Shown: positions 1 to 50,454 of the stretch, one piece after another | How the letters are laid out: each line of letters starts with the position of its first letter | Numbering within the stretch: position 1 is the stretch's first letter | Origin: Sipunculus nudus | Lineage: Eukaryota; Annelida; Sipuncula; Golfingiida; Sipunculidae | Reading direction: 5' to 3' | DNA: 64,000 nt | Assembly: GCA_026874595.1 (NCBI GenBank) | Contig: CM049315.1 | Coordinates: forward strand, 72,461,416 to 72,525,415 | The notes under the pieces: model-generated | Told to the model about the DNA's origin: nothing | The model's input: the letters and a program-made list of their open reading frames with translations, nothing else | Databases searched by the model: none | Program-made: the position numbers and the translations under genes

Positions 1-26
1 ACTGATACATGTTACGTCATACACTA

Positions 27-190
27 ATATCTCGAAAGCAATTGTTCAGTTTTTGGAAAATTACCGCTAGGGGGCGCTGCACTGCAACCCCGTACCTACT
101 ATCATTGTTTAACCATATCTCCACAACTACACATTTTAGGTACATAAACTGTACACCATATGAATTGGCCTTTCATGGCCTTTCTGCCCA
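27..190 (+). repeat. Module A of the internal unit duplication
   Basis: This part aligns to module B at 846-990 with an almost constant offset of 817-819 bp. Landmarks are ATATCTCGAAA (27 and 846), CCGCYAGGGGGCGYTGCA (64 and 882) and TAYMTCCASAACTA (about 116 and 933). The two are clearly diverged, far more than the copies of the unit are from each other. The unit is therefore an old duplication of a smaller module that was later amplified as one block. It recurs every 1274 bp. Confidence 0.75.
64..78 (+). promoter_or_regulatory. CTCF-like motif, site A (once per unit)
   Basis: CCGCTAGGGGGCGCT matches the established CTCF core consensus CCASYAGRKGGCRSY at every position except the third (G for A). 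It lies on the + strand. The same 15-mer recurs in all 33 copies at 64+1274(n-1), and in the truncated copy at 42106-42120. Whether the host's CTCF binds here is inference; a G-rich core can also belong to another zinc-finger protein. Confidence 0.5.
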
Positions 191-280
191 TGACCTCTTT
201 TGTTTAATCATACATGGTCCCCGCCAATTTTAACAACTTTGTAAAAATTAAAACCCGCATGCACAAATACATATGCCATC

Positions 281-298
281 ACGCATGCATGCACGCGT
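281..298. other. Alternating purine-pyrimidine tract (per unit)
   Basis: ACGCATGCATGCACGCGT is an unbroken 18-nt alternation of purine and pyrimidine with several CG and CA/TG steps, a type of sequence able to adopt Z-DNA under negative supercoiling. It recurs in every copy. The overlapping GCATGC repeats make it locally palindromic. Confidence 0.4.
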
Positions 299-323
299 TT
301 TCGTATGAAAGACAGACACGCTT

Positions 324-365
324 TCACGTGACTGCAAAAATTATAGCGTTCGCCGTATAAAATAA
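324..365 (+). promoter_or_regulatory. Promoter-like E-box plus TATA stretch (per unit)
   Basis: TCACGTGA (324-331), an E-box of the type bound by bHLH-zip proteins such as USF or TFE, is followed 25 bp on by TATAAAATAA (356-365). The best initiator match downstream (CCATTTC, 398-404) is 44 bp from the TATA start, further than the usual 30 bp. This weakens the case for a classic promoter. If the satellite is transcribed, this is the most likely start region on the + strand. Confidence 0.25.
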
Positions 366-594
366 GTGGCCACAGGCACTCTTTGCGGGCCGGTTTGCCA
401 TTTCTGTCGCGTTATAGTTTATTGCTTGCCGGAATCAGAGATTTCGACAAGTATGTTGATCAGTTCCGTTTGTTTGTTTGTCTGTATGTCCCCGCTCTAC
501 AGGCCACAATTTTGCACCAATCGTCCTGAAACTTATAGATAGAGTGTATAATCGGTTCTTCTCGGAGCCTATTGTTTTTGGTCATGATCGGTCA

Positions 595-613
595 AGGGTC
601 AAGGTCAGGGTCA
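595..613 (+). promoter_or_regulatory. Cluster of nuclear-receptor half-sites (per unit)
   Basis: Three tandem half-sites abut: AGGGTCA (595-601), AGGTCA (602-607) and GGGTCA (608-613). They include TCAAGGTCA (599-607), the extended monomer site known for NR5A/ERR-type orphan receptors. Such GGTCA runs are frequent in mollusc dispersed repeats, so the motif may be ancestry of the repeat rather than a working element. Variants at 593-594 lie just outside it. Confidence 0.3.
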
Positions 614-845
614 CCAAAAAGCTCAAAAACGGTTTTCTCTTCATACCTTCGTCAAAAATAGCCGTAGGCACCTAATCTGTAGCCCGTTTTATTTGCCACT
701 GCATGGCCACTTCCAACACTGCAAAATTGCCTCATTTCGCTGTTACCATGGTTACGCAATTTTGGGGAGAAATCATGGAATTTCGTGATATTTTTCAAAT
801 TTGCAGCAATTTTACTGATTCTGAGATATTTTATGTAACATAAGA

Positions 846-990
846 ATATCTCGAAACGGGTTTTTCAGATTTTGGAAATGGCCGCCAGGGGGCGTTGCAG
901 ATGAAAAAACATGAAAATTTGGTTTGGTGCTATACCTCCAGAACTATTAAACATTGGGCCATTTCCATCACAGCACCTTAAACTAGGGTC
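846..990 (+). repeat. Module B of the internal unit duplication
   Basis: Diverged direct repeat of module A (27-190) in the same orientation. It shares the ATATCTCGAAA start, the AGGGGGCG core and the downstream TAYMTCC motif in the same order. Two of the variable positions (922 and 984) fall inside it, but neither touches the GGGGGCG core. Confidence 0.72.
882..896 (+). promoter_or_regulatory. CTCF-like motif, site B (once per unit)
   Basis: CCGCCAGGGGGCGTT, preceded by TGG, is close to the classic CTCF form TGGCCACCAGGGGGCGCTA. It has the same orientation as site A, 818 bp downstream, and is present in all 33 full copies. Together with site A this gives about 67 same-strand CTCF-like motifs in 42 kb. 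No sequence variant that I found falls in either motif. Confidence 0.5.
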
Positions 991-3900
991 CATGGGCTTA
1001 TTTTTGCGCATAGGTGCCAAAGTGCGCTATTGCCAGATTTCTCTATTTTTGGGGTAAAACCTTTGAATTTTGAAAATATGCAGTTTTCAGCTTCTAACTC
1101 TGTCAGTTTTTATGCTAGAGAGGTCAAAAGTTTTGCATCTTGTAGCCCTTGGTGAGTTCTCGGTGATCCAACCAAAAATCTTGCAAAATCTCGCACCGTT
1201 TCTCGTCGAATGAGATTTCGCGATTTCACGGTGACATGCCCTATAGGCCACAGATATGCAGGCATCCTTTTGAAACTGATACATGTTACGTCATACACTA
1301 ATATCTCGAAAGCAATTGTTCAGTTTTTGGAAAATTACCGCTAGGGGGCGCTGCACTGCAACCCCGTACCTACTATCATTGTTTAACCATATCTCCACAA
1401 CTACACATTTTAGGTACATAAACTGTACACCATATGAATTGGCCTTTCATGGCCTTTCTGCCCATGACCTCTTTTGTTTAATCATACATGGTCCCCGCCA
1501 ATTTTAACAACTTTGTAAAAATTAAAACCCGCATGCACAAATACATATACCATCACGCATGCATGCACGCGTTTTCGTATGAAAGACAGACACGCTTTCA
1601 CGTGACTGCAAAAATTATAGCGTTCGCCGTATAAAATAAGTGGCCACAGGCACTCTTTGCGGGCCGGTTTGCCATTTCTGTCGCGTTATAGTTTATTGCT
1701 TGCCGGAATCAGAGATTTCGACAAGTATGTTGATCAGTTCCGTTTGTTTGTTTGTCTGTATGTCCCCGCTCTACAGGCCACAATTTTGCACCAATCGTCC
1801 TGAAACTTATAGATAGAGTGTATAATCGGTTCTTCTCGGAGCCTATTGTTTTTGGTCATGATCGGTCAAGGGTCAAGGTCAGGGTCACCAAAAAGCTCAA
1901 AAACGGTTTTCTCTTCATACCTTCGTCAAAAATAGCCGTAGGCACCTAATCTGTAGCCCGTTTTATTTGCCACTGCATGGCCACTTCCAACACTGCAAAA
2001 TTGCCTCATTTCGCTGTTACCATGGTTACGCAATTTTGGGGAGAAATCATGGAATTTCGTGATATTTTTCAAATTTGCAGCAATTTTACTGATTCTGAGA
2101 TATTTTATGTAACATAAGAATATCTCGAAACGGGTTTTTCAGATTTTGGAAATGGCCGCCAGGGGGCGTTGCAGATGAAAAAACATGAAAATTTGTTTTG
2201 GTGCTATACCTCCAGAACTATTAAACATTGGGCCATTTCCATCACAGCACCTTAAACTAGGGTCCATGGGCTTATTTTTGCGCATAGGTGCCAAAGTGCG
2301 CTATTGCCAGATTTCTCTATTTTTGGGGTAAAACCTTTGAATTTTGAAAATATGCAGTTTTCAGCTTCTAACTCTGTCAGTTTTTATGCTAGAGAGGTCA
2401 AAAGTTTTGCATCTTGTAGCCCTTGGTGAGTTCTCGGTGATCCAACCAAAAATCTTGCAAAATCTCGCACCGTTTCTCGTCGAATGAGATTTCGCGATTT
2501 CACGGTGACATGCCCTATAGGCCACAGATATGCAGGCATCCTTTTGAAACTGATACATGTTACGTCATACACTAATATCTCGAAAGCAATTGTTCAGTTT
2601 TTGGAAAATTACCGCTAGGGGGCGCTGCACTGCAACCCCGTACCTACTATCATTGTTTAACCATATCTCCACAACTACACATTTTAGGTACATAAACTGT
2701 ACACCATATGAATTGGCCTTTCATGGCCTTTCTGCCCATGACCTCTTTTGTTTAATCATACATGGTCCCCGCCAATTTTAACAACTTTGTAAAAATTAAA
2801 ACCCGCATGCACAAATACATATGCCATCACGCATGCATGCACGCGTTTTCGTATGAAAGACAGACACGCTTTCACGTGACTGCAAAAATTATAGCGTTCG
2901 CCGTATAAAATAAGTGGCCACAGGCACTCTTTGCGGGCCGGTTTGCCATTTCTGTCGCGTTATAGTTTATTGCTTGCCGGAATCAGAGATTTCGACAAGT
3001 ATGTTGATCAGTTCCGTTTGTTTGTTTGTCTGTATGTCCCCGCTCTACAGGCCACAATTTTGCACCAATCGTCCTGAAACTTATAGATAGAGTGTATAAT
3101 CGGTTCTTCTCGGAGCCTATTGTTTTTGGTCATGATCGGTCAAGGGTCAAGGTCAGGGTCACCAAAAAGCTCAAAAACGGTTTTCTCTTCATACCTTCGT
3201 CAAAAATAGCCGTAGGCACCTAATCTGTAGCCCGTTTTATTTGCCACTGCATGGCCACTTCCAACACTGCAAAATTGCCTCATTTCGCTGTTACCATGGT
3301 TACGCAATTTTGGGGAGAAATCATGGAATTTCGTGATATTTTTCAAATTTGCAGCAATTTTACTGATTCTGAGATATTTTATGTAACATAAGAATATCTC
3401 GAAACGGGTTTTTCAGATTTTGGAAATGGCCGCCAGGGGGCGTTGCAGATGAAAAAACATGAAAATTTGTTTTGGTGCTATACCTCCAGAACTATTAAAC
3501 ATTGGGCCATTTCCATCACAGCACCTTAAACTAGGGTCCATGGGCTTATTTTTGCGCATAGGTGCCAAAGTGCGCTATTGCCAGATTTCTCTATTTTTGG
3601 GGTAAAACCTTTGAATTTTGAAAATATGCAGTTTTCAGCTTCTAACTCTGTCAGTTTTTATGCTAGAGAGGTCAAAAGTTTTGCATCTTGTAGCCCTTGG
3701 TGAGTTCTCGGTGATCCAACCAAAAATCTTGCAAAATCTCGCACCGTTTCTCGTCGAATGAGATTTCGCGATTTCACGGTGACATGCCCTATAGGCCACA
3801 GATATGCAGGCATCCTTTTGAAACTGATACATGTTACGTCATACACTAATATCTCGAAAGCAATTGTTCAGTTTTTGGAAAATTACCGCTAGGGGGCGCT

Positions 3901-6900
3901 GCACTGCAACCCCGTACCTACTATCATTGTTTAACCATATCTCCACAACTACACATTTTAGGTACATAAACTGTACACCATATGAATTGGCCTTTCATGG
4001 CCTTTCTGCCCATGACCTCTTTTGTTTAATCATACATGGTCCCCGCCAATTTTAACAACTTTGTAAAAATTAAAACCCGCATGCACAAATACATATGCCA
4101 TCACGCATGCATGCACGCGTTTTCGTATGAAAGACAGACACGCTTTCACGTGACTGCAAAAATTATAGCGTTCGCCGTATAAAATAAGTGGCCACAGGCA
4201 CTCTTTGCGGGCCGGTTTGCCATTTCTGTCGCGTTATAGTTTATTGCTTGCCGGAATCAGAGATTTCGACAAGTATGTTGATCAGTTCCGTTTGTTTGTT
4301 TGTCTGTATGTCCCCGCTCTACAGGCCACAATTTTGCACCAATCGTCCTGAAACTTATAGATAGAGTGTATAATCGGTTCTTCTCGGAGCCTATTGTTTT
4401 TGGTCATGATCGGTCAAGGGTCAAGGTCAGGGTCACCAAAAAGCTCAAAAACGGTTTTCTCTTCATACCTTCGTCAAAAATAGCCGTAGGCACCTAATCT
4501 GTAGCCCGTTTTATTTGCCACTGCATGGCCACTTCCAACACTGCAAAATTGCCTCATTTCGCTGTTACCATGGTTACGCAATTTTGGGGAGAAATCATGG
4601 AATTTCGTGATATTTTTCAAATTTGCAGCAATTTTACTGATTCTGAGATATTTTATGTAACATAAGAATATCTCGAAACGGGTTTTTCAGATTTTGGAAA
4701 TGGCCGCCAGGGGGCGTTGCAGATGAAAAAACATGAAAATTTGGTTTGGTGCTATACCTCCAGAACTATTAAACATTGGGCCATTTCCATCACAGCACCT
4801 TAAACTAGGGTCCATGGGCTTATTTTTGCGCATAGGTGCCAAAGTGCGCTATTGCCAGATTTCTCTATTTTTGGGGTAAAACCTTTGAATTTTGAAAATA
4901 TGCAGTTTTCAGCTTCTAACTCTGTCAGTTTTTATGCTAGAGAGGTCAAAAGTTTTGCATCTTGTAGCCCTTGGTGAGTTCTCGGTGATCCAACCAAAAA
5001 TCTTGCAAAATCTCGCACCGTTTCTCGTCGAATGAGATTTCGCGATTTCACGGTGACATGCCCTATAGGCCACAGATATGCAGGCATCCTTTTGAAACTG
5101 ATACATGTTACGTCATACACTAATATCTCGAAAGCAATTGTTCAGTTTTTGGAAAATTACCGCTAGGGGGCGCTGCACTGCAACCCCGTACCTACTATCA
5201 TTGTTTAACCATATCTCCACAACTACACATTTTAGGTACATAAACTGTACACCATATGAATTGGCCTTTCATGGCCTTTCTGCCCATGACCTCTTTTGTT
5301 TAATCATACATGGTCCCCGCCAATTTTAACAACTTTGTAAAAATTAAAACCCGCATGCACAAATACATATGCCATCACGCATGCATGCACGCGTTTTCGT
5401 ATGAAAGACAGACACGCTTTCACGTGACTGCAAAAATTATAGCGTTCGCCGTATAAAATAAGTGGCCACAGGCACTCTTTGCGGGCCGGTTTGCCATTTC
5501 TGTCGCGTTATAGTTTATTGCTTGCCGGAATCAGAGATTTCGACAAGTATGTTGATCAGTTCCGTTTGTTTGTTTGTCTGTATGTCCCCGCTCTACAGGC
5601 CACAATTTTGCACCAATCGTCCTGAAACTTATAGATAGAGTGTATAATCGGTTCTTCTCGGAGCCTATTGTTTTTGGTCATGATCGGTCAAGGGTCAAGG
5701 TCAGGGTCACCAAAAAGCTCAAAAACGGTTTTCTCTTCATACCTTCGTCAAAAATAGCCGTAGGCACCTAATCTGTAGCCCGTTTTATTTGCCACTGCAT
5801 GGCCACTTCCAACACTGCAAAATTGCCTCATTTCGCTGTTACCATGGTTACGCAATTTTGGGGAGAAATCATGGAATTTCGTGATATTTTTCAAATTTGC
5901 AGCAATTTTACTGATTCTGAGATATTTTATGTAACATAAGAATATCTCGAAACGGGTTTTTCAGATTTTGGAAATGGCCGCCAGGGGGCGTTGCAGATGA
6001 AAAAACATGAAAATTTGTTTTGGTGCTATACCTCCAGAACTATTAAACATTGGGCCATTTCCATCACAGCACCTTAAACTAGGGTCCATGGGCTTATTTT
6101 TGCGCATAGGTGCCAAAGTGCGCTATTGCCAGATTTCTCTATTTTTGGGGTAAAACCTTTGAATTTTGAAAATATGCAGTTTTCAGCTTCTAACTCTGTC
6201 AGTTTTTATGCTAGAGAGGTCAAAAGTTTTGCATCTTGTAGCCCTTGGTGAGTTCTCGGTGATCCAACCAAAAATCTTGCAAAATCTCGCACCGTTTCTC
6301 GTCGAATGAGATTTCGCGATTTCACGGTGACATGCCCTATAGGCCACAGATATGCAGGCATCCTTTTGAAACTGATACATGTTACGTCATACACTAATAT
6401 CTCGAAAGCAATTGTTCAGTTTTTGGAAAATTACCGCTAGGGGGCGCTGCACTGCAACCCCGTACCTACTATCATTGTTTAACCATATCTCCACAACTAC
6501 ACATTTTAGGTACATAAACTGTACACCATATGAATTGGCCTTTCATGGCCTTTCTGCCCATGACCTCTTTTGTTTAATCATACATGGTCCCCGCCAATTT
6601 TAACAACTTTGTAAAAATTAAAACCCGCATGCACAAATACATATGCCATCACGCATGCATGCACGCGTTTTCGTATGAAAGACAGACACGCTTTCACGTG
6701 ACTGCAAAAATTATAGCGTTCGCCGTATAAAATAAGTGGCCACAGGCACTCTTTGCGGGCCGGTTTGCCATTTCTGTCGCGTTATAGTTTATTGCTTGCC
6801 GGAATCAGAGATTTCGACAAGTATGTTGATCAGTTCCGTTTGTTTGTTTGTCTGTATGTCCCCGCTCTACAGGCCACAATTTTGCACCAATCGTCCTGAA

Positions 6901-9900
6901 ACTTATAGATAGAGTGTATAATCAGTTCTTCTCGGAGCCTATTGTTTTTGGTCATGATCGGTCAAGGGTCAAGGTCAGGGTCACCAAAAAGCTCAAAAAC
7001 GGTTTTCTCTTCATACCTTCGTCAAAAATAGCCGTAGGCACCTAATCTGTAGCCCGTTTTATTTGCCACTGCATGGCCACTTCCAACACTGCAAAATTGC
7101 CTCATTTCGCTGTTACCATGGTTACGCAATTTTGGGGAGAAATCATGGAATTTCGTGATATTTTTCAAATTTGCAGCAATTTTACTGATTCTGAGATATT
7201 TTATGTAACATAAGAATATCTCGAAACGGGTTTTTCAGATTTTGGAAATGGCCGCCAGGGGGCGTTGCAGATGAAAAAACATGAAAATTTGTTTTGGTGC
7301 TATACCTCCAGAACTATTAAACATTGGGCCATTTCCATCACAGCACCTTAAACTAGGGTCCATGGGCTTATTTTTGCGCATAGGTGCCAAAGTGCGCTAT
7401 TGCCAGATTTCTCTATTTTTGGGGTAAAACCTTTGAATTTTGAAAATATGCAGTTTTCAGCTTCTAACTCTGTCAGTTTTTATGCTAGAGAGGTCAAAAG
7501 TTTTGCATCTTGTAGCCCTTGGTGAGTTCTCGGTGATCCAACCAAAAATCTTGCAAAATCTCGCACCGTTTCTCGTCGAATGAGATTTCGCGATTTCACG
7601 GTGACATGCCCTATAGGCCACAGATATGCAGGCATCCTTTTGAAACTGATACATGTTACGTCATACACTAATATCTCGAAAGCAATTGTTCAGTTTTTGG
7701 AAAATTACCGCTAGGGGGCGCTGCACTGCAACCCCGTACCTACTATCATTGTTTAACCATATCTCCACAACTACACATTTTAGGTACATAAACTGTACAC
7801 CATATGAATTGGCCTTTCATGGCCTTTCTGCCCATGACCTCTTTTGTTTAATCATACATGGTCCCCGCCAATTTTAACAACTTTGTAAAAATTAAAACCC
7901 GCATGCACAAATACATATGCCATCACGCATGCATGCACGCGTTTTCGTATGAAAGACAGACACGCTTTCACGTGACTGCAAAAATTATAGCGTTCGCCGT
8001 ATAAAATAAGTGGCCACAGGCACTCTTTGCGGGCCGGTTTGCCATTTCTGTCGCGTTATAGTTTATTGCTTGCCGGAATCAGAGATTTCGACAAGTATGT
8101 TGATCAGTTCCGTTTGTTTGTTTGTCTGTATGTCCCCGCTCTACAGGCCACAATTTTGCACCAATCGTCCTGAAACTTATAGATAGAGTGTATAATCGGT
8201 TCTTCTCGGAGCCTATTGTTTTTGGTCATGATCGGTCTAGGGTCAAGGTCAGGGTCACCAAAAAGCTCAAAAACGGTTTTCTCTTCATACCTTCGTCAAA
8301 AATAGCCGTAGGCACCTAATCTGTAGCCCGTTTTATTTGCCACTGCATGGCCACTTCCAACACTGCAAAATTGCCTCATTTCGCTGTTACCATGGTTACG
8401 CAATTTTGGGGAGAAATCATGGAATTTCGTGATATTTTTCAAATTTGCAGCAATTTTACTGATTCTGAGATATTTTATGTAACATAAGAATATCTCGAAA
8501 CGGGTTTTTCAGATTTTGGAAATGGCCGCCAGGGGGCGTTGCAGATGAAAAAACATGAAAATTTGTTTTGGTGCTATACCTCCAGAACTATTAAACATTG
8601 GGCCATTTCCATCACAGCACCTTAAACTAGGGTCCATGGGCTTATTTTTGCGCATAGGTGCCAAAGTGCGCTATTGCCAGATTTCTCTATTTTTGGGGTA
8701 AAACCTTTGAATTTTGAAAATATGCAGTTTTCAGCTTCTAACTCTGTCAGTTTTTATGCTAGAGAGGTCAAAAGTTTTGCATCTTGTAGCCCTTGGTGAG
8801 TTCTCGGTGATCCAACCAAAAATCTTGCAAAATCTCGCACCGTTTCTCGTCGAATGAGATTTCGCGATTTCACGGTGACATGCCCTATAGGCCACAGATA
8901 TGCAGGCATCCTTTTGAAACTGATACATGTTACGTCATACACTAATATCTCGAAAGCAATTGTTCAGTTTTTGGAAAATTACCGCTAGGGGGCGCTGCAC
9001 TGCAACCCCGTACCTACTATCATTGTTTAACCATATCTCCACAACTACACATTTTAGGTACATAAACTGTACACCATATGAATTGGCCTTTCATGGCCTT
9101 TCTGCCCATGACCTCTTTTGTTTAATCATACATGGTCCCCGCCAATTTTAACAACTTTGTAAAAATTAAAACCCGCATGCACAAATACATATGCCATCAC
9201 GCATGCATGCACGCGTTTTCGTATGAAAGACAGACACGCTTTCACGTGACTGCAAAAATTATAGCGTTCGCCGTATAAAATAAGTGGCCACAGGCACTCT
9301 TTGCGGGCCGGTTTGCCATTTCTGTCGCGTTATAGTTTATTGCTTGCCGGAATCAGAGATTTCGACAAGTATGTTGATCAGTTCCGTTTGTTTGTTTGTC
9401 TGTATGTCCCCGCTCTACAGGCCACAATTTTGCACCAATCGTCCTGAAACTTATAGATAGAGAGTATAATCGGTTCTTCTCGGAGCCTATTGTTTTTGGT
9501 CATGATCGGTTTAGGGTCAAGGTCAGGGTCACCAAAAAGCTCAAAAACGGTTTTCTCTTCATACCTTCGTCAAAAATAGCCGTAGGCACCTAATCTGTAG
9601 CCCGTTTTATTTGCCACTGCATGGCCACTTCCAACACTGCAAAATTGCCTCATTTCGCTGTTACCATGGTTACGCAATTTTGGGGAGAAATCATGGAATT
9701 TCGTGATATTTTTCAAATTTGCAGCAATTTTACTGATTCTGAGATATTTTATGTAACATAAGAATATCTCGAAACGGGTTTTTCAGATTTTGGAAATGGC
9801 CGCCAGGGGGCGTTGCAGATGAAAAAACATGAAAATTTGTTTTGGTGCTATACCTCCAGAACTATTAAACATTGGGCCATTTCCATCACAGCACCTTAAA

Positions 9901-12900
9901 CAAGGGTCCATGGGCTTATTTTTGCGCATAGGTGCCAAAGTGCGCTATTGCCAGATTTCTCTATTTTTGGGGTAAAACCTTTGAATTTTGAAAATATGCA
10001 GTTTTCAGCTTCTAACTCTGTCAGTTTTTATGCTAGAGAGGTCAAAAGTTTTGCATCTTGTAGCCCTTGGTGAGTTCTCGGTGATCCAACCAAAAATCTT
10101 GCAAAATCTCGCACCGTTTCTCGTCGAATGAGATTTCGCGATTTCACGGTGACATGCCCTATAGGCCACAGATATGCAGGCATCCTTTTGAAACTGATAC
10201 ATGTTACGTCATACACTAATATCTCGAAAGCAATTGTTCAGTTTTTGGAAAATTACCGCTAGGGGGCGCTGCACTGCAACCCCGTACCTACTATCATTGT
10301 TTAACCATATCTCCACAACTACACATTTTAGGTACATAAACTGTACACCATATGAATTGGCCTTTCATGGCCTTTCTGCCCATGACCTCTTTTGTTTAAT
10401 CATACATGGTCCCCGCCAATTTTAACAACTTTGTAAAAATTAAAACCCGCATGCACAAATACATATGCCATCACGCATGCATGCACGCGTTTTCGTATGA
10501 AAGACAGACACGCTTTCACGTGACTGCAAAAATTATAGCGTTCGCCGTATAAAATAAGTGGCCACAGGCACTCTTTGCGGGCCGGTTTGCCATTTCTGTC
10601 GCGTTATAGTTTATTGCTTGCCGGAATCAGAGATTTCGACAAGTATGTTGATCAGTTCCGTTTGTTTGTTTGTCTGTATGTCCCCGCTCTACAGGCCACA
10701 ATTTTGCACCAATCGTCCTGAAACTTATAGATAGAGTGTATAATCAGTTCTTCTCGGAGCCTATTGTTTTTGGTCATGATCGGTCAAGGGTCAAGGTCAG
10801 GGTCACCAAAAAGCTCAAAAACGGTTTTCTCTTCATACCTTCGTCAAAAATAGCCGTAGGCACCTAATCTGTAGCCCGTTTTATTTGCCACTGCATGGCC
10901 ACTTCCAACACTGCAAAATTGCCTCATTTCGCTGTTACCATGGTTACGCAATTTTGGGGAGAAATCATGGAATTTCGTGATATTTTTCAAATTTGCAGCA
11001 ATTTTACTGATTCTGAGATATTTTATGTAACATAAGAATATCTCGAAACGGGTTTTTCAGATTTTGGAAATGGCCGCCAGGGGGCGTTGCAGATGAAAAA
11101 ACATGAAAATTTGTTTTGGTGCTATACCTCCAGAACTATTAAACATTGGGCCATTTCCATCACAGCACCTTAAACTAGGGTCCATGGGCTTATTTTTGCG
11201 CATAGGTGCCAAAGTGCGCTATTGCCAGATTTCTCTATTTTTGGGGTAAAACCTTTGAATTTTGAAAATATGCAGTTTTCAGCTTCTAACTCTGTCAGTT
11301 TTTATGCTAGAGAGGTCAAAAGTTTTGCATCTTGTAGCCCTTGGTGAGTTCTCGGTGATCCAACCAAAAATCTTGCAAAATCTCGCACCGTTTCTCGTCG
11401 AATGAGATTTCGCGATTTCACGGTGACATGCCCTATAGGCCACAGATATGCAGGCATCCTTTTGAAACTGATACATGTTACGTCATACACTAATATCTCG
11501 AAAGCAATTGTTCAGTTTTTGGAAAATTACCGCTAGGGGGCGCTGCACTGCAACCCCGTACCTACTATCATTGTTTAACCATATCTCCACAACTACACAT
11601 TTTAGGTACATAAACTGTACACCATATGAATTGGCCTTTCATGGCCTTTCTGCCCATGACCTCTTTTGTTTAATCATACATGGTCCCCGCCAATTTTAAC
11701 AACTTTGTAAAAATTAAAACCCGCATGCACAAATACATATGCCATCACGCATGCATGCACGCGTTTTCGTATGAAAGACAGACACGCTTTCACGTGACTG
11801 CAAAAATTATAGCGTTCGCCGTATAAAATAAGTGGCCACAGGCACTCTTTGCGGGCCGGTTTGCCATTTCTGTCGCGTTATAGTTTATTGCTTGCCGGAA
11901 TCAGAGATTTCGACAAGTATGTTGATCAGTTCCGTTTGTTTGTTTGTCTGTATGTCCCCGCTCTACAGGCCACAATTTTGCACCAATCGTCCTGAAACTT
12001 ATAGATAGAGTGTATAATCGGTTCTTCTCGGAGCCTATTGTTTTTGGTCATGATCGGTCTAGGGTCAAGGTCAGGGTCACCAAAAAGCTCAAAAACGGTT
12101 TTCTCTTCATACCTTCGTCAAAAATAGCCGTAGGCACCTAATCTGTAGCCCGTTTTATTTGCCACTGCATGGCCACTTCCAACACTGCAAAATTGCCTCA
12201 TTTCGCTGTTACCATGGTTACGCAATTTTGGGGAGAAATCATGGAATTTCGTGATATTTTTCAAATTTGCAGCAATTTTACTGATTCTGAGATATTTTAT
12301 GTAACATAAGAATATCTCGAAACGGGTTTTTCAGATTTTGGAAATGGCCGCCAGGGGGCGTTGCAGATGAAAAAACATGAAAATTTGTTTTGGTGCTATA
12401 CCTCCAGAACTATTAAACATTGGGCCATTTCCATCACAGCACCTTAAACTAGGGTCCATGGGCTTATTTTTGCGCATAGGTGCCAAAGTGCGCTATTGCC
12501 AGATTTCTCTATTTTTGGGGTAAAACCTTTGAATTTTGAAAATATGCAGTTTTCAGCTTCTAACTCTGTCAGTTTTTATGCTAGAGAGGTCAAAAGTTTT
12601 GCATCTTGTAGCCCTTGGTGAGTTCTCGGTGATCCAACCAAAAATCTTGCAAAATCTCGCACCGTTTCTCGTCGAATGAGATTTCGCGATTTCACGGTGA
12701 CATGCCCTATAGGCCACAGATATGCAGGCATCCTTTTGAAACTGATACATGTTACGTCATACACTAATATCTCGAAAGCAATTGTTCAGTTTTTGGAAAA
12801 TTACCGCTAGGGGGCGCTGCACTGCAACCCCGTACCTACTATCATTGTTTAACCATATCTCCACAACTACACATTTTAGGTACATAAACTGTACACCATA

Positions 12901-30900: not shown

Positions 30901-33900
30901 CACGTGACTGCAAAAATTATAGCGTTCGCCGTATAAAATAAGTGGCCACAGGCACTCTTTGCGGGCCGGTTTGCCATTTCTGTCGCGTTATAGTTTATTG
31001 CTTGCCGGAATCAGAGATTTCGACAAGTATGTTGATCAGTTCCGTTTGTTTGTTTGTCTGTATGTCCCCGCTCTACAGGCCACAATTTTGCACCAATCGT
31101 CCTGAAACTTATAGATAGAGTGTATAATCGGTTCTTCTCGGAGCCTATTGTTTTTGGTCATGATCGGTCAAGGGTCAAGGTCAGGGTCACCAAAAAGCTC
31201 AAAAACGGTTTTCTCTTCATACCTTCGTCAAAAATAGCCGTAGGCACCTAATCTGTAGCCCGTTTTATTTGCCACTGCATGGCCACTTCCAACACTGCAA
31301 AATTGCCTCATTTCGCTGTTACCATGGTTACGCAATTTTGGGGAGAAATCATGGAATTTCGTGATATTTTTCAAATTTGCAGCAATTTTACTGATTCTGA
31401 GATATTTTATGTAACATAAGAATATCTCGAAACGGGTTTTTCAGATTTTGGAAATGGCCGCCAGGGGGCGTTGCAGATGAAAAAACATGAAAATTTGTTT
31501 TGGTGCTATACCTCCAGAACTATTAAACATTGGGCCATTTCCATCACAGCACCTTAAACTAGGGTCCATGGGCTTATTTTTGCGCATAGGTGCCAAAGTG
31601 CGCTATTGCCAGATTTCTCTATTTTTGGGGTAAAACCTTTGAATTTTGAAAATATGCAGTTTTCAGCTTCTAACTCTGTCAGTTTTTATGCTAGAGAGGT
31701 CAAAAGTTTTGCATCTTGTAGCCCTTGGTGAGTTCTCGGTGATCCAACCAAAAATCTTGCAAAATCTCGCACCGTTTCTCGTCGAATGAGATTTCGCGAT
31801 TTCACGGTGACATGCCCTATAGGCCACAGATATGCAGGCATCCTTTTGAAACTGATACATGTTACGTCATACACTAATATCTCGAAAGCAATTGTTCAGT
31901 TTTTGGAAAATTACCGCTAGGGGGCGCTGCACTGCAACCCCGTACCTACTATCATTGTTTAACCATATCTCCACAACTACACATTTTAGGTACATAAACT
32001 GTACACCATATGAATTGGCCTTTCATGGCCTTTCTGCCCATGACCTCTTTTGTTTAATCATACATGGTCCCCGCCAATTTTAACAACTTTGTAAAAATTA
32101 AAACCCGCATGCACAAATACATATGCCATCACGCATGCATGCACGCGTTTTCGTATGAAAGACAGACACGCTTTCACGTGACTGCAAAAATTATAGCGTT
32201 CGCCGTATAAAATAAGTGGCCACAGGCACTCTTTGCGGGCCGGTTTGCCATTTCTGTCGCGTTATAGTTTATTGCTTGCCGGAATCAGAGATTTCGACAA
32301 GTATGTTGATCAGTTCCGTTTGTTTGTTTGTCTGTATGTCCCCGCTCTACAGGCCACAATTTTGCACCAATCGTCCTGAAACTTATAGATAGAGTGTATA
32401 ATCGGTTCTTCTCGGAGCCTATTGTTTTTGGTCATGATCGGTCAAGGGTCAAGGTCAGGGTCACCAAAAAGCTCAAAAACGGTTTTCTCTTCATACCTTC
32501 GTCAAAAATAGCCGTAGGCACCTAATCTGTAGCCCGTTTTATTTGCCACTGCATGGCCACTTCCAACACTGCAAAATTGCCTCATTTCGCTGTTACCATG
32601 GTTACGCAATTTTGGGGAGAAATCATGGAATTTCGTGATATTTTTCAAATTTGCAGCAATTTTACTGATTCTGAGATATTTTATGTAACATAAGAATATC
32701 TCGAAACGGGTTTTTCAGATTTTGGAAATGGCCGCCAGGGGGCGTTGCAGATGAAAAAACATGAAAATTTGTTTTGGTGCTATACCTCCAGAACTATTAA
32801 ACATTGGGCCATTTCCATCACAGCACCTTAAACTAGGGTCCATGGGCTTATTTTTGCGCATAGGTGCCAAAGTGCGCTATTGCCAGATTTCTCTATTTTT
32901 GGGGTAAAACCTTTGAATTTTGAAAATATGCAGTTTTCAGCTTCTAACTCTGTCAGTTTTTATGCTAGAGAGGTCAAAAGTTTTGCATCTTGTAGCCCTT
33001 GGTGAGTTCTCGGTGATCCAACCAAAAATCTTGCAAAATCTCGCACCGTTTCTCGTCGAATGAGATTTCGCGATTTCACGGTGACATGCCCTATAGGCCA
33101 CAGATATGCAGGCATCCTTTTGAAACTGATACATGTTACGTCATACACTAATATCTCGAAAGCAATTGTTCAGTTTTTGGAAAATTACCGCTAGGGGGCG
33201 CTGCACTGCAACCCCGTACCTACTATCATTGTTTAACCATATCTCCACAACTACACATTTTAGGTACATAAACTGTACACCATATGAATTGGCCTTTCAT
33301 GGCCTTTCTGCCCATGACCTCTTTTGTTTAATCATACATGGTCCCCGCCAATTTTAACAACTTTGTAAAAATTAAAACCCGCATGCACAAATACATATGC
33401 CATCACGCATGCATGCACGCGTTTTCGTATGAAAGACAGACACGCTTTCACGTGACTGCAAAAATTATAGCGTTCGCCGTATAAAATAAGTGGCCACAGG
33501 CACTCTTTGCGGGCCGGTTTGCCATTTCTGTCGCGTTATAGTTTATTGCTTGCCGGAATCAGAGATTTCGACAAGTATGTTGATCAGTTCCGTTTGTTTG
33601 TTTGTCTGTATGTCCCCGCTCTACAGGCCACAATTTTGCACCAATCGTCCTGAAACTTATAGATAGAGTGTATAATCGGTTCTTCTCGGAGCCTATTGTT
33701 TTTGGTCATGATCGGTCAAGGGTCAAGGTCAGGGTCACCAAAAAGCTCAAAAACGGTTTTCTCTTCATACCTTCGTCAAAAATAGCCGTAGGCACCTAAT
33801 CTGTAGCCCGTTTTATTTGCCACTGCATGGCCACTTCCAACACTGCAAAATTGCCTCATTTCGCTGTTACCATGGTTACGCAATTTTGGGGAGAAATCAT

Positions 33901-36900
33901 GGAATTTCGTGATATTTTTCAAATTTGCAGCAATTTTACTGATTCTGAGATATTTTATGTAACATAAGAATATCTCGAAACGGGTTTTTCAGATTTTGGA
34001 AATGGCCGCCAGGGGGCGTTGCAGATGAAAAAACATGAAAATTTGTTTTGGTGCTATACCTCCAGAACTATTAAACATTGGGCCATTTCCATCACAGCAC
34101 CTTAAACTAGGGTCCATGGGCTTATTTTTGCGCATAGGTGCCAAAGTGCGCTATTGCCAGATTTCTCTATTTTTGGGGTAAAACCTTTGAATTTTGAAAA
34201 TATGCAGTTTTCAGCTTCTAACTCTGTCAGTTTTTATGCTAGAGAGGTCAAAAGTTTTGCATCTTGTAGCCCTTGGTGAGTTCTCGGTGATCCAACCAAA
34301 AATCTTGCAAAATCTCGCACCGTTTCTCGTCGAATGAGATTTCGCGATTTCACGGTGACATGCCCTATAGGCCACAGATATGCAGGCATCCTTTTGAAAC
34401 TGATACATGTTACGTCATACACTAATATCTCGAAAGCAATTGTTCAGTTTTTGGAAAATTACCGCTAGGGGGCGCTGCACTGCAACCCCGTACCTACTAT
34501 CATTGTTTAACCATATCTCCACAACTACACATTTTAGGTACATAAACTGTACACCATATGAATTGGCCTTTCATGGCCTTTCTGCCCATGACCTCTTTTG
34601 TTTAATCATACATGGTCCCCGCCAATTTTAACAACTTTGTAAAAATTAAAACCCGCATGCACAAATACATATGCCATCACGCATGCATGCACGCGTTTTC
34701 GTATGAAAGACAGACACGCTTTCACGTGACTGCAAAAATTATAGCGTTCGCCGTATAAAATAAGTGGCCACAGGCACTCTTTGCGGGCCGGTTTGCCATT
34801 TCTGTCGCGTTATAGTTTATTGCTTGCCGGAATCAGAGATTTCGACAAGTATGTTGATCAGTTCCGTTTGTTTGTTTGTCTGTATGTCCCCGCTCTACAG
34901 GCCACAATTTTGCACCAATCGTCCTGAAACTTATAGATAGAGTGTATAATCGGTTCTTCTCGGAGCCTATTGTTTTTGGTCATGATCGGTCAAGGGTCAA
35001 GGTCAGGGTCACCAAAAAGCTCAAAAACGGTTTTCTCTTCATACCTTCGTCAAAAATAGCCGTAGGCACCTAATCTGTAGCCCGTTTTATTTGCCACTGC
35101 ATGGCCACTTCCAACACTGCAAAATTGCCTCATTTCGCTGTTACCATGGTTACGCAATTTTGGGGAGAAATCATGGAATTTCGTGATATTTTTCAAATTT
35201 GCAGCAATTTTACTGATTCTGAGATATTTTATGTAACATAAGAATATCTCGAAACGGGTTTTTCAGATTTTGGAAATGGCCGCCAGGGGGCGTTGCAGAT
35301 GAAAAAACATGAAAATTTGTTTTGGTGCTATACCTCCAGAACTATTAAACATTGGGCCATTTCCATCACAGCACCTTAAACTAGGGTCCATGGGCTTATT
35401 TTTGCGCATAGGTGCCAAAGTGCGCTATTGCCAGATTTCTCTATTTTTGGGGTAAAACCTTTGAATTTTGAAAATATGCAGTTTTCAGCTTCTAACTCTG
35501 TCAGTTTTTATGCTAGAGAGGTCAAAAGTTTTGCATCTTGTAGCCCTTGGTGAGTTCTCGGTGATCCAACCAAAAATCTTGCAAAATCTCGCACCGTTTC
35601 TCGTCGAATGAGATTTCGCGATTTCACGGTGACATGCCCTATAGGCCACAGATATGCAGGCATCCTTTTGAAACTGATACATGTTACGTCATACACTAAT
35701 ATCTCGAAAGCAATTGTTCAGTTTTTGGAAAATTACCGCTAGGGGGCGCTGCACTGCAACCCCGTACCTACTATCATTGTTTAACCATATCTCCACAACT
35801 ACACATTTTAGGTACATAAACTGTACACCATATGAATTGGCCTTTCATGGCCTTTCTGCCCATGACCTCTTTTGTTTAATCATACATGGTCCCCGCCAAT
35901 TTTAACAACTTTGTAAAAATTAAAACCCGCATGCACAAATACATATGCCATCACGCATGCATGCACGCGTTTTCGTATGAAAGACAGACACGCTTTCACG
36001 TGACTGCAAAAATTATAGCGTTCGCCGTATAAAATAAGTGGCCACAGGCACTCTTTGCGGGCCGGTTTGCCATTTCTGTCGCGTTATAGTTTATTGCTTG
36101 CCGGAATCAGAGATTTCGACAAGTATGTTGATCAGTTCCGTTTGTTTGTTTGTCTGTATGTCCCCGCTCTACAGGCCACAATTTTGCACCAATCGTCCTG
36201 AAACTTATAGATAGAGTGTATAATCGGTTCTTCTCGGAGCCTATTGTTTTTGGTCATGATCGGTCAAGGGTCAAGGTCAGGGTCACCAAAAAGCTCAAAA
36301 ACGGTTTTCTCTTCATACCTTCGTCAAAAATAGCCGTAGGCACCTAATCTGTAGCCCGTTTTATTTGCCACTGCATGGCCACTTCCAACACTGCAAAATT
36401 GCCTCATTTCGCTGTTACCATGGTTACGCAATTTTGGGGAGAAATCATGGAATTTCGTGATATTTTTCAAATTTGCAGCAATTTTACTGATTCTGAGATA
36501 TTTTATGTAACATAAGAATATCTCGAAACGGGTTTTTCAGATTTTGGAAATGGCCGCCAGGGGGCGTTGCAGATGAAAAAACATGAAAATTTGTTTTGGT
36601 GCTATACCTCCAGAACTATTAAACATTGGGCCATTTCCATCACAGCACCTTAAACTAGGGTCCATGGGCTTATTTTTGCGCATAGGTGCCAAAGTGCGCT
36701 ATTGCCAGATTTCTCTATTTTTGGGGTAAAACCTTTGAATTTTGAAAATATGCAGTTTTCAGCTTCTAACTCTGTCAGTTTTTATGCTAGAGAGGTCAAA
36801 AGTTTTGCATCTTGTAGCCCTTGGTGAGTTCTCGGTGATCCAACCAAAAATCTTGCAAAATCTCGCACCGTTTCTCGTCGAATGAGATTTCGCGATTTCA

Positions 36901-39900
36901 CGGTGACATGCCCTATAGGCCACAGATATGCAGGCATCCTTTTGAAACTGATACATGTTACGTCATACACTAATATCTCGAAAGCAATTGTTCAGTTTTT
37001 GGAAAATTACCGCTAGGGGGCGCTGCACTGCAACCCCGTACCTACTATCATTGTTTAACCATATCTCCACAACTACACATTTTAGGTACATAAACTGTAC
37101 ACCATATGAATTGGCCTTTCATGGCCTTTCTGCCCATGACCTCTTTTGTTTAATCATACATGGTCCCCGCCAATTTTAACAACTTTGTAAAAATTAAAAC
37201 CCGCATGCACAAATACATATGCCATCACGCATGCATGCACGCGTTTTCGTATGAAAGACAGACACGCTTTCACGTGACTGCAAAAATTATAGCGTTCGCC
37301 GTATAAAATAAGTGGCCACAGGCACTCTTTGCGGGCCGGTTTGCCATTTCTGTCGCGTTATAGTTTATTGCTTGCCGGAATCAGAGATTTCGACAAGTAT
37401 GTTGATCAGTTCCGTTTGTTTGTTTGTCTGTATGTCCCCGCTCTACAGGCCACAATTTTGCACCAATCGTCCTGAAACTTATAGATAGAGTGTATAATCG
37501 GTTCTTCTCGGAGCCTATTGTTTTTGGTCATGATCGGTCAAGGGTCAAGGTCAGGGTCACCAAAAAGCTCAAAAACGGTTTTCTCTTCATACCTTCGTCA
37601 AAAATAGCCGTAGGCACCTAATCTGTAGCCCGTTTTATTTGCCACTGCATGGCCACTTCCAACACTGCAAAATTGCCTCATTTCGCTGTTACCATGGTTA
37701 CGCAATTTTGGGGAGAAATCATGGAATTTCGTGATATTTTTCAAATTTGCAGCAATTTTACTGATTCTGAGATATTTTATGTAACATAAGAATATCTCGA
37801 AACGGGTTTTTCAGATTTTGGAAATGGCCGCCAGGGGGCGTTGCAGATGAAAAAACATGAAAATTTGTTTTGGTGCTATACCTCCAGAACTATTAAACAT
37901 TGGGCCATTTCCATCACAGCACCTTAAACTAGGGTCCATGGGCTTATTTTTGCGCATAGGTGCCAAAGTGCGCTATTGCCAGATTTCTCTATTTTTGGGG
38001 TAAAACCTTTGAATTTTGAAAATATGCAGTTTTCAGCTTCTAACTCTGTCAGTTTTTATGCTAGAGAGGTCAAAAGTTTTGCATCTTGTAGCCCTTGGTG
38101 AGTTCTCGGTGATCCAACCAAAAATCTTGCAAAATCTCGCACCGTTTCTCGTCGAATGAGATTTCGCGATTTCACGGTGACATGCCCTATAGGCCACAGA
38201 TATGCAGGCATCCTTTTGAAACTGATACATGTTACGTCATACACTAATATCTCGAAAGCAATTGTTCAGTTTTTGGAAAATTACCGCTAGGGGGCGCTGC
38301 ACTGCAACCCCGTACCTACTATCATTGTTTAACCATATCTCCACAACTACACATTTTAGGTACATAAACTGTACACCATATGAATTGGCCTTTCATGGCC
38401 TTTCTGCCCATGACCTCTTTTGTTTAATCATACATGGTCCCCGCCAATTTTAACAACTTTGTAAAAATTAAAACCCGCATGCACAAATACATATGCCATC
38501 ACGCATGCATGCACGCGTTTTCGTATGAAAGACAGACACGCTTTCACGTGACTGCAAAAATTATAGCGTTCGCCGTATAAAATAAGTGGCCACAGGCACT
38601 CTTTGCGGGCCGGTTTGCCATTTCTGTCGCGTTATAGTTTATTGCTTGCCGGAATCAGAGATTTCGACAAGTATGTTGATCAGTTCCGTTTGTTTGTTTG
38701 TCTGTATGTCCCCGCTCTACAGGCCACAATTTTGCACCAATCGTCCTGAAACTTATAGATAGAGTGTATAATCGGTTCTTCTCGGAGCCTATTGTTTTTG
38801 GTCATGATCGGTCAAGGGTCAAGGTCAGGGTCACCAAAAAGCTCAAAAACGGTTTTCTCTTCATACCTTCGTCAAAAATAGCCGTAGGCACCTAATCTGT
38901 AGCCCGTTTTATTTGCCACTGCATGGCCACTTCCAACACTGCAAAATTGCCTCATTTCGCTGTTACCATGGTTACGCAATTTTGGGGAGAAATCATGGAA
39001 TTTCGTGATATTTTTCAAATTTGCAGCAATTTTACTGATTCTGAGATATTTTATGTAACATAAGAATATCTCGAAACGGGTTTTTCAGATTTTGGAAATG
39101 GCCGCCAGGGGGCGTTGCAGATGAAAAAACATGAAAATTTGTTTTGGTGCTATACCTCCAGAACTATTAAACATTGGGCCATTTCCATCACAGCACCTTA
39201 AACTAGGGTCCATGGGCTTATTTTTGCGCATAGGTGCCAAAGTGCGCTATTGCCAGATTTCTCTATTTTTGGGGTAAAACCTTTGAATTTTGAAAATATG
39301 CAGTTTTCAGCTTCTAACTCTGTCAGTTTTTATGCTAGAGAGGTCAAAAGTTTTGCATCTTGTAGCCCTTGGTGAGTTCTCGGTGATCCAACCAAAAATC
39401 TTGCAAAATCTCGCACCGTTTCTCGTCGAATGAGATTTCGCGATTTCACGGTGACATGCCCTATAGGCCACAGATATGCAGGCATCCTTTTGAAACTGAT
39501 ACATGTTACGTCATACACTAATATCTCGAAAGCAATTGTTCAGTTTTTGGAAAATTACCGCTAGGGGGCGCTGCACTGCAACCCCGTACCTACTATCATT
39601 GTTTAACCATATCTCCACAACTACACATTTTAGGTACATAAACTGTACACCATATGAATTGGCCTTTCATGGCCTTTCTGCCCATGACCTCTTTTGTTTA
39701 ATCATACATGGTCCCCGCCAATTTTAACAACTTTGTAAAAATTAAAACCCGCATGCACAAATACATATGCCATCACGCATGCATGCACGCGTTTTCGTAT
39801 GAAAGACAGACACGCTTTCACGTGACTGCAAAAATTATAGCGTTCGCCGTATAAAATAAGTGGCCACAGGCACTCTTTGCGGGCCGGTTTGCCATTTCTG

Positions 39901-42042
39901 TCGCGTTATAGTTTATTGCTTGCCGGAATCAGAGATTTCGACAAGTATGTTGATCAGTTCCGTTTGTTTGTTTGTCTGTATGTCCCCGCTCTACAGGCCA
40001 CAATTTTGCACCAATCGTCCTGAAACTTATAGATAGAGTGTATAATCGGTTCTTCTCGGAGCCTATTGTTTTTGGTCATGATCGGTCAAGGGTCAAGGTC
40101 AGGGTCACCAAAAAGCTCAAAAACGGTTTTCTCTTCATACCTTCGTCAAAAATAGCCGTAGGCACCTAATCTGTAGCCCGTTTTATTTGCCACTGCATGG
40201 CCACTTCCAACACTGCAAAATTGCCTCATTTCGCTGTTACCATGGTTACGCAATTTTGGGGAGAAATCATGGAATTTCGTGATATTTTTCAAATTTGCAG
40301 CAATTTTACTGATTCTGAGATATTTTATGTAACATAAGAATATCTCGAAACGGGTTTTTCAGATTTTGGAAATGGCCGCCAGGGGGCGTTGCAGATGAAA
40401 AAACATGAAAATTTGTTTTGGTGCTATACCTCCAGAACTATTAAACATTGGGCCATTTCCATCACAGCACCTTAAACTAGGGTCCATGGGCTTATTTTTG
40501 CGCATAGGTGCCAAAGTGCGCTATTGCCAGATTTCTCTATTTTTGGGGTAAAACCTTTGAATTTTGAAAATATGCAGTTTTCAGCTTCTAACTCTGTCAG
40601 TTTTTATGCTAGAGAGGTCAAAAGTTTTGCATCTTGTAGCCCTTGGTGAGTTCTCGGTGATCCAACCAAAAATCTTGCAAAATCTCGCACCGTTTCTCGT
40701 CGAATGAGATTTCGCGATTTCACGGTGACATGCCCTATAGGCCACAGATATGCAGGCATCCTTTTGAAACTGATACATGTTACGTCATACACTAATATCT
40801 CGAAAGCAATTGTTCAGTTTTTGGAAAATTACCGCTAGGGGGCGCTGCACTGCAACCCCGTACCTACTATCATTGTTTAACCATATCTCCACAACTACAC
40901 ATTTTAGGTACATAAACTGTACACCATATGAATTGGCCTTTCATGGCCTTTCTGCCCATGACCTCTTTTGTTTAATCATACATGGTCCCCGCCAATTTTA
41001 ACAACTTTGTAAAAATTAAAACCCGCATGCACAAATACATATGCCATCACGCATGCATGCACGCGTTTTCGTATGAAAGACAGACACGCTTTCACGTGAC
41101 TGCAAAAATTATAGCGTTCGCCGTATAAAATAAGTGGCCACAGGCACTCTTTGCGGGCCGGTTTGCCATTTCTGTCGCGTTATAGTTTATTGCTTGCCGG
41201 AATCAGAGATTTCGACAAGTATGTTGATCAGTTCCGTTTGTTTGTTTGTCTGTATGTCCCCGCTCTACAGGCCACAATTTTGCACCAATCGTCCTGAAAC
41301 TTATAGATAGAGTGTATAATCGGTTCTTCTCGGAGCCTATTGTTTTTGGTCATGATCGGTCAAGGGTCAAGGTCAGGGTCACCAAAAAGCTCAAAAACGG
41401 TTTTCTCTTCATACCTTCGTCAAAAATAGCCGTAGGCACCTAATCTGTAGCCCGTTTTATTTGCCACTGCATGGCCACTTCCAACACTGCAAAATTGCCT
41501 CATTTCGCTGTTACCATGGTTACGCAATTTTGGGGAGAAATCATGGAATTTCGTGATATTTTTCAAATTTGCAGCAATTTTACTGATTCTGAGATATTTT
41601 ATGTAACATAAGAATATCTCGAAACGGGTTTTTCAGATTTTGGAAATGGCCGCCAGGGGGCGTTGCAGATGAAAAAACATGAAAATTTGTTTTGGTGCTA
41701 TACCTCCAGAACTATTAAACATTGGGCCATTTCCATCACAGCACCTTAAACTAGGGTCCATGGGCTTATTTTTGCGCATAGGTGCCAAAGTGCGCTATTG
41801 CCAGATTTCTCTATTTTTGGGGTAAAACCTTTGAATTTTGAAAATATGCAGTTTTCAGCTTCTAACTCTGTCAGTTTTTATGCTAGAGAGGTCAAAAGTT
41901 TTGCATCTTGTAGCCCTTGGTGAGTTCTCGGTGATCCAACCAAAAATCTTGCAAAATCTCGCACCGTTTCTCGTCGAATGAGATTTCGCGATTTCACGGT
42001 GACATGCCCTATAGGCCACAGATATGCAGGCATCCTTTTGAA

Positions 42043-42416
42043 ACTGATACATGTTACGTCATACACTAATATCTCGAAAGCAATTGTTCAGTTTTTGGAA
42101 AATTACCGCTAGGGGGCGCTGCACTGCAACCCCGTACCTACTATCATTGTTTAACCATATCTCCACAACTACACATTTTAGGTACATAAACTGTACACCA
42201 TATGAATTGGCCTTTCATGGCCTTTCTGCCCATGACCTCTTTTGTTTAATCATACATGGTCCCCGCCAATTTTAACAACTTTGTAAAAATTAAAACCCGC
42301 ATGCACAAATACATATGCCATCACGCATGCATGCACGCGTTTTCGTATGAAAGACAGACACGCTTTCACGTGACTGCAAAAATTATAGCGTTCGCCGTAT
42401 AAAATAAGTGGCCACA
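42043..42416. repeat. Truncated last satellite copy and array edge
   Basis: Copy 34 follows the consensus for unit positions 1-374 without a difference that I can see and stops abruptly one base after the palindrome GTGGCCAC. From 42417 the sequence is unrelated to the unit. The edge is therefore a clean breakpoint, not a zone of decayed copies. It keeps CTCF-like site A but loses the half-site cluster and site B. Confidence 0.93.
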
Positions 42417-49905: not shown

Positions 49906-50454
49906 CACTGACTAACTTTCTTCTAGATCTTACTTTACAAGTCCAGTTTGTATTGATATTGTACAGTTCACATTTTAATCCTTAAAAGAGTAAAACATAT
50001 AAGTAAGGATATGTCATATGTTAACACAATACAGACAGAACAAGGGGTAACAGGAATCACAATTAAAACCATTTTATATAGCCCTTGATAGATTACAAAT
50101 CATCGTTTAACAAAAACGATCAGGAAATGAGCACTATTACCTCCAAATACCCAATGGTCATAGTTAATGCTAAATAGAATACAAGAATTCGCTTTTCTCT
50201 ATTGTGTTAGTCATATTGCAGCTATCTGAATGATTTATGTTCGCCATTTTACTTTTTCTAATCTATGAATACTATAAAATGTAATAAAGTACACTTTTAA
50301 GAACAAAAAATAAGAAACTATGTGCCCTTGAGTAAAGCATCATTTTAACAAATCACTGAAATGCAATGACACATAATTAAATGAATAGTCACCTTTTCTG
50401 CAATTGTGGTGGTCAGGTTAACAGCCATTTCTTAATTTCCGGCAAATTATTATC
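49906..50454. other. Spacer between dispersed repeat and promoter-side repeats
   Basis: AT-rich, with no gene or repeat that I can support. Confidence 0.5.

Follow-up and report, generated by a model that had tools for sequence, protein, structure and literature searches.

Does a long tandem array of CTCF-like motifs in an invertebrate genome represent a dedicated chromosome-folding locus, or did the motifs arrive there by another route? The question is raised by a 64,000-bp stretch of the genome of the sipunculid worm Sipunculus nudus (assembly GCA_026874595.1, contig CM049315.1; G000:C10:72461416-72525415 in a genome of 1.43 Gb), referred to below as the window, much of which is a satellite with a 1274-bp unit and two CTCF-type motifs per unit. 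The array bears on the question of direction-dependent arrest of loop extrusion by CTCF outside vertebrates. A preliminary description had likened the satellite to the human macrosatellite DXZ4. The analysis reported here finds instead one array of a transposon-derived satellite family that is spread through the genome, in which transposon-borne CTCF-type sites have been amplified into a one-directional array. This anatomy we hold to be nearly certain. The explanation we favor as a whole, and hold with moderate confidence, is that this array descends from an element of the HINE type (a non-autonomous Helitron/Helentron) and that its sites would be recognized by the CTCF protein of the host.

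A one-directional satellite array

The array fills positions 1-42416 of the window (+ strand) with 33 full 1274-bp units and a 374-bp partial unit, and it runs on upstream of the window. At the period of 1274 bp, window positions 1-42600 match themselves at 99.55%. The first unit (1-1274, + strand, in the phase of the preliminary description) differs from the consensus once, at position 922, units 25-33 are identical to the consensus, and the partial last unit (42043-42416, + strand, equivalent to unit positions 1-374) forms the right edge. Unit variants cluster in blocks of neighboring units (6-8, 9-11 and 17-19), which is the pattern expected from unequal exchange. The unit number and period described earlier are exact for the window, but the length of 42 kb is not that of the array, which the window cuts: the 40 kb upstream of it are unbroken array, for a contiguous total of 82,416 bp with 55 mismatches to the unit overall and 65 exact copies of each motif. 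In 600-base samples taken still farther upstream on the same contig, units are present in phase at 72411416 (99.8% identity) and out of phase at 72391416 (98.3%) and 72361416 (100%); the change of phase points to length changes or interruptions in between. Unit recurrence reaches 100 kb upstream of the window start; samples from 72311416 and 72211416 contain diverged pieces of the family alone, mostly at 74-80%. On the right the array ends at ~72.504 Mb and non-array sequence lies beyond. Because Tandem Repeats Finder was limited to a maximal period of 500, it did not call the array.

The CTCF-type 19-mers of the unit lie at 61-79 (motif 1) and 879-897 (motif 2), both on the + strand, and recur every 1274 bp to give 34 and 33 copies in the window. 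The corresponding 15-mers, CCGCTAGGGGGCGCT and CCGCCAGGGGGCGTT, have 34 and 33 exact matches, all on the + strand and beginning with 64-78 and 882-896, compared with none in shuffled sequence, and a degenerate pattern allowing up to 3 mismatches retrieved the same 67 sites, all on the + strand, against 1.35 expected. Both the per-unit positions and the total of about 67 motifs in one orientation, as first described, were therefore borne out. Scored with a working version of the vertebrate matrix JASPAR MA0139.1 (maximum 29.1 bits), the 19-mers starting at unit positions 61 and 879 reach 22.0 and 21.6 bits (p ~2-3e-8 each). The preliminary description had proposed a comparison with shuffled sequence, and with this working matrix the motifs outscored all shuffles: among 2000 dinucleotide-shuffled versions of the unit, none reached the best score and none the second. 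Column-shuffled matrices matched the real site in the unit in 0 of 5000 cases, the best of them coming within 1.3 bits (21.8 vs 23.0). The third-ranked site in the unit (4.1 bits) is motif 2 read at an offset of three bases, and the top-scoring site in the 21.6-kb flank has 10.1 bits. A CTCF-type site is thus present in every repeat unit, with a match to the working CTCF matrix well above chance.

A truncated rolling-circle element as the source of the unit

Comparison of the unit with dispersed relatives identifies it as a 3'-truncated, tandemly amplified HINE-type element. The 5' end lies at 422-453 (+ strand) and consists of the subterminal inverted repeat GCTTGCCGGAA with an adjoining imperfect inverse, together forming a hairpin; a GTTT/GTCT microsatellite follows at 468-489 (+ strand), a layout like that of the oyster element Cg_HINE. 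Relatives were studied in 16 stretches of 10 kb from contig C1 (L013-L028), picked on hits to motif 2. Among the matches listed, L013 is 81.9-98.5% identical to 11 other loci over 1.4-2.5 kb, with identities of at least 92.9% for 9 of the 11. A sharp left end, TTGCTTGCCGG or one base off, is found in 10 of 11 loci inspected for it (L025 did not match the pattern), and the flanks differ between dispersed copies. Three loci (L014, L018 and L021) have the left end twice; in the last of them, L021, it is preceded by sequence that is itself element-like. All six right ends displayed share ...GGCAAGCGCGTGACC[T/A]CTGGTCATCTTGT, beyond which the flanks are unrelated in five and another copy follows in the sixth (L018).

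The anatomy of the dispersed copies is that by which HINEs are recognized. They begin with GCTTGCCGGAA, its adjoining inverse and the GTTT/GTCT microsatellite, with a 5' end that folds into a hairpin, and they finish with TTCCGGCAAGC, a second hairpin and the terminus CTTGT or CTAGT. In the 2354-bp element of L019, GCTTGCCGGAA is located at position 3, the inverse TTTCGGCAAGC at 21 and TTCCGGCAAGC at 2322, so that subterminal inverted repeats occupy both ends and the inverse sits beside the 5' copy. Also characteristic of HINEs are the 3' palindrome GTGACC-TCT-GGTCAT ahead of CTTGT/CTAGT, which folds with RNA parameters, and the combination of internal tandem repeats with a 5' microsatellite. 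In a further relative, L043, CGACCTCTGGTCG replaces the palindrome; both arms are changed and the hairpin is kept. For L013, an exact copy of the empty site exists in the neighboring minisatellite and places the insertion between T and T, without duplication. Target duplication is absent at three of four insertions, and the fourth (L024), located within a TTA repeat, gives no information. Where copies stand in tandem, their seams read ...TTATAGTTTA joined straight to the element 5' end. The satellite unit likewise runs from the left end (unit 422) to the truncation point and directly into the left end of the next unit, and the element right end was not found on the + strand of the unit even when 4 mismatches were allowed. 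Head-to-tail amplification of a 3'-truncated HINE-type element would produce such an array.

The family is large. There are 1848 exact genome copies of the right-end 17-mer (control 0) and 2590 of motif 2 (reversed control 0), and ladders of 1274/1275 bp occur at several places on C1 among the matches listed. The first motif-2 copy fetched carried the motif within a mosaic of diverged modules, and L013-L028 contain mostly dispersed copies, with tandem stretches of units in some (L016, L026, L027 and L028). These data bear directly on the idea of a dedicated DXZ4-like macrosatellite, that is, a single locus selected for CTCF binding in each unit and for chromosome folding. A long and homogeneous array with CTCF-type sites in every unit, all in one direction, is what such a locus would look like. 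However, further arrays and dispersed copies exist elsewhere, in both orientations, the unit has a transposon origin, and its two sites are homologous through an internal duplication described below; we consider a locus of this kind very unlikely.

Diverged modules, the host CTCF and the reader of the motif

Motifs 1 and 2 both lie inside a 105-bp internal duplication whose copies, at unit positions 1251-81 (holding motif 1) and 796-899 (+ strand, holding motif 2), are 71% identical. The two motifs are therefore not independent and look like one site that was doubled and kept. Since the whole array is more than 99.9% identical, perfect conservation of the motifs inside it says little, and as a sign of selection it was rejected for lack of power. 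Conservation was assessed instead across diverged modules, using a module profile in which the 19-mer had been masked to N so that the motif was unable to select its own hits. Searched in 17 loci, the profile gave 106 hits, 95 of them usable, and the best of four offsets scored at least 10 bits in 92 and at least 15 bits in 88 of these 95. Above 5 bits there are 36 distinct 19-mers, with the consensus TGGCCGCTAGGGGGCGCTG (26.3 bits, p ~5e-10). The element family consists of degenerate modules, every one bearing a CTCF-type site, and these sites all point one way.

Substitutions among these 36 19-mers (those of 5 bits or less left out, the copies being related and from one chromosome) are mild with respect to the CTCF matrix: 0 of 5000 random placements were as mild, and 21 of 20,000 when each substitution type was counted once, or 50 of 20,000 without CpG positions. 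Position 10 has no substitution and positions 7, 9, 13 and 14 have one each, while position 8 changes to C (6) or A (1), position 11 to A (5) or T (3) and position 12 to T (4). The variable positions mostly track the matrix, with G/A at 6 and 11, T/C at 8 and G/T at 12. Judged by the matrix, the changes thus fall mostly where CTCF would tolerate them.

The genome also encodes the protein itself, which answers the objection, raised in the preliminary description, that the species might have no CTCF gene. With the human CTCF fingers as query, the best match is an open frame of 989 amino acids on contig C11 (E 4.9e-109; 373 bits, vs 198 for the runner-up). It has 11 fingers, 55-56% identical to human, and its best match in the PDB is human CTCF, with the stretch ahead of finger 1 included. 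The contacts of fingers 3-5 (TGER, ESKR and DYKR) are those of the human protein. The motif SVYDF is kept as well, and the YDF of human CTCF (226-228) is required for cohesin retention (PMC10264798). As an observation in its own right, the finger query returned 320 matches, a large expansion of C2H2 zinc-finger genes in which C16 is by far the commonest contig among the matches listed, with C7, C9, C11 and C6 also present.

Several points weigh against recognition by CTCF or against selection for it. At position 6 the array motif has a G, where the working vertebrate matrix has a strong preference for A, and the contacts of fingers 6 and 7 are changed from human (QGTM to QNSA and RSDV to RTDI); the latter changes may account for tolerance of the former. 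The substitution tests draw on related copies of one chromosome with the weakest 19-mers omitted. Other module blocks, such as columns 40-52, are conserved at least equally. Column conservation at the motif correlates with CTCF information (0.52, p 0.02), but when the information profile was slid along the module the motif came third of 142 offsets (0.54 vs 0.66 and 0.56), and since two offsets outscore it the correlation is given no weight. CpG decay within the motif goes both ways, with 9 variants in the CTCF-damaging direction and 12 in the tolerated one, and 3 variants have a T at position 11 that the matrix disfavors, a pattern that does not reveal continued selection acting on individual copies. 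Finally, binding of CTCF to the array is itself a prediction.

Some of these observations would be expected if the reader of the motif were the replication or transposition machinery of the Helentron, or another C2H2 protein, with the likeness to CTCF due to coincidence or to a shared finger code. The motif sits in internal transposon modules with equally conserved neighbors, the genome has its C2H2 expansion, and the T at position 11 is unfit for CTCF. Most variable positions nevertheless obey the CTCF matrix, and the motif form with AGATGG also occurs outside the element. The latter point comes from genome-wide counts of CTCF-consensus 15-mers, repeats, array and element copies included: CCGCTAGRKGGCGCT has 5828 copies (control 0), CCACTAGRKGGCGCT 946 (reversed control 3) and CCRCYAGATGGCGCT 606 (reversed control 0). 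The first ten of the 606 CCRCYAGATGGCGCT sites by coordinate were followed up in 3-kb loci, and in 10 of 10 the site itself resembles neither the unit nor the module model nor any of seven HINE loci; position 6 is G in four of them and A in the other six. Away from the site, 9 of the 10 loci resemble reference loci, and L040-L042 share their context, so the ten sites are not ten independent ones. On this evidence we regard a reader other than CTCF as improbable.

Two related observations concern the surroundings of such sites. In L040, L041 and L042 the CTCF-consensus site stands in a common repeat-like context outside the HINE, GCCACTAGATGGCGCT followed by ...TGTC.GTA. The AGATGG form is found within HINE relatives too: L043 (C1:65274000-65276000) is such a relative and has two CCGCCAGATGGCGCT sites spaced 213 bp apart, and among the matches listed several CCGCCAGATGGCGCT pairs at 212-213 bp occur on C1 between 65.27 and 67.53 Mb, a region dense in family arrays.

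A quite different possibility is that the motif is a passive passenger, an old transposon sequence copied along in arrays that are methylated or heterochromatic and on which CTCF does not act. Recent amplification by itself explains the homogeneity of the array, CpG decay in the motif has no clear direction, and motif copies and element ends exist in thousands genome-wide. On the other hand, the motif has been kept while the modules diverged strongly, most of its substitutions hitting tolerated positions, and the observed/expected CpG ratio of 0.90 in the unit vs 0.72 in the flank gives no hint of long-standing germline methylation, although young age could explain this as well. We regard such passive copying as a serious but less probable alternative to a HINE-derived array recognized by CTCF.

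Possible consequences for chromosome folding and relation to known systems

If the favored explanation holds, the host CTCF would be able to recognize the sites and, where chromatin is open and unmethylated, would probably occupy a number of them, if not all; from motif and protein together, binding at array sites appears probable. In vertebrates, a forward CTCF motif halts cohesin that approaches from higher coordinates. Since the genome encodes CTCF, the array could be a barrier that works in one direction: its motifs point to higher coordinates, and if occupied it would stop cohesin coming from the right flank, with loops anchored at the array extending rightward from 72.504 Mb on C10. A boundary role is nevertheless a tentative proposal that we consider unlikely. 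Directional action in invertebrates is not to be assumed, because in echinoderms the enrichment of CTCF motifs at boundaries is weaker and unrelated to orientation (PMC13317027). Findings from invertebrates are mixed: squid boundaries show enrichment of a CCCTC-like motif (PMC9023564), CTCF motifs of a small annelid are mainly at promoters (PMC7854359), and for spiralians the cited texts offer indirect evidence on CTCF direction from cephalopods alone (PMC10658181, PMC9023564, PMC12407938). At least 130 one-directional CTCF-type sites beside non-array sequence, in a host whose CTCF has the YDF motif, amount to a natural experiment on this question. A bolder version, which we offer as speculation, is that a rolling-circle family seeded thousands of one-directional working CTCF clusters, and that arrays with at least 100 sites would be one-way cohesin barriers and would set domain boundaries that differ from one individual to another according to array length. 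Were this true, a rolling-circle, satellite-forming route would join the ways in which transposons can rewire chromosome folding.

The remainder of the window and of the unit can be described briefly. The right flank (42417-64000, unstranded) has no significant similarity to the unit, which was looked for there, and contains dispersed repeats of other kinds. At 60562-62316 it holds a degenerate reverse transcriptase that is interrupted by stops between consecutive pieces, the middle one matching RVT_1 at 6.7e-23. A large diverged inverted repeat at 49184-53322 is foldback-like, its arms being 67-80% complementary and ~3-4 kb apart. Within the unit, 590-613 (every 1274 bp) carries GGTCAAGGGTCAAGGTCAGGGTCA, a cluster of AGGTCA-like half-sites, presumably of the nuclear-receptor type, with comparable clusters in L001 and L019. 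A check for a promoter in each unit, like the one of human DXZ4, found one TATAAAA on the + strand. A coding unit was rejected since the longest stop-free stretch over three joined units is 75 amino acids and since a frame on the reverse strand that extends across the edge of the array has no Pfam match. Searches for structured RNA or tRNA found none, and two patterns used to look for relatives in viral_contigs gave zero matches.

Among known systems, SINE elements of the mouse have spread CTCF sites through the genome. The family described here is like them in being a transposon family that distributes CTCF-type sites across the genome, and unlike them in being a rolling-circle element with several same-direction sites per copy, satellite amplification and predicted occupancy. 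DXZ4 of primates and mouse is a CTCF-bound tandem array, long and homogeneous in primates (PMC3491370); it is an X-linked locus with demonstrated binding, whereas here there are several arrays with dispersed copies and the sites are predicted. In Drosophila, CTCF is reported to be bound at transposon-interrupted ribosomal DNA (PMC3024428), which is likewise an invertebrate tandem array with CTCF, here as predicted sites, at transposon sequence; there the elements are inserted, while in the present array the unit as such derives from a transposon, with predicted binding.

The closest parallels are other HINEs. Satellite-like central repeats are known from Cg_HINE of Crassostrea gigas and DINE-1 of Drosophila, and such repeats can also occur as satellite arrays; the oyster HINEs include tandem copies with a truncated 3' end (PMC7492417). 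The present element shares with Cg_HINE the 5' subterminal inverted repeat with adjoining inverse, the GTCT-type microsatellite, the tandem internal repeats, the 3' subterminal inverted repeat with palindrome and the TT insertion without duplication (PMC7492417). The word CTCF is absent from the survey's main text, and the titles and abstract starts listed in searches on CTCF, macrosatellites, Helitrons and satellite DNA describe no Helitron-derived satellite with such a site of CTCF type. HINE-derived satellites were already known, and within that literature the CTCF-type sites in them are the new part. Relative to the HINE satellites of the survey, the unit is longer (1274 bp vs 100-500 bp), and the array of at least 82 kb and the internal modules with CTCF-type sites set this family apart (PMC7492417).

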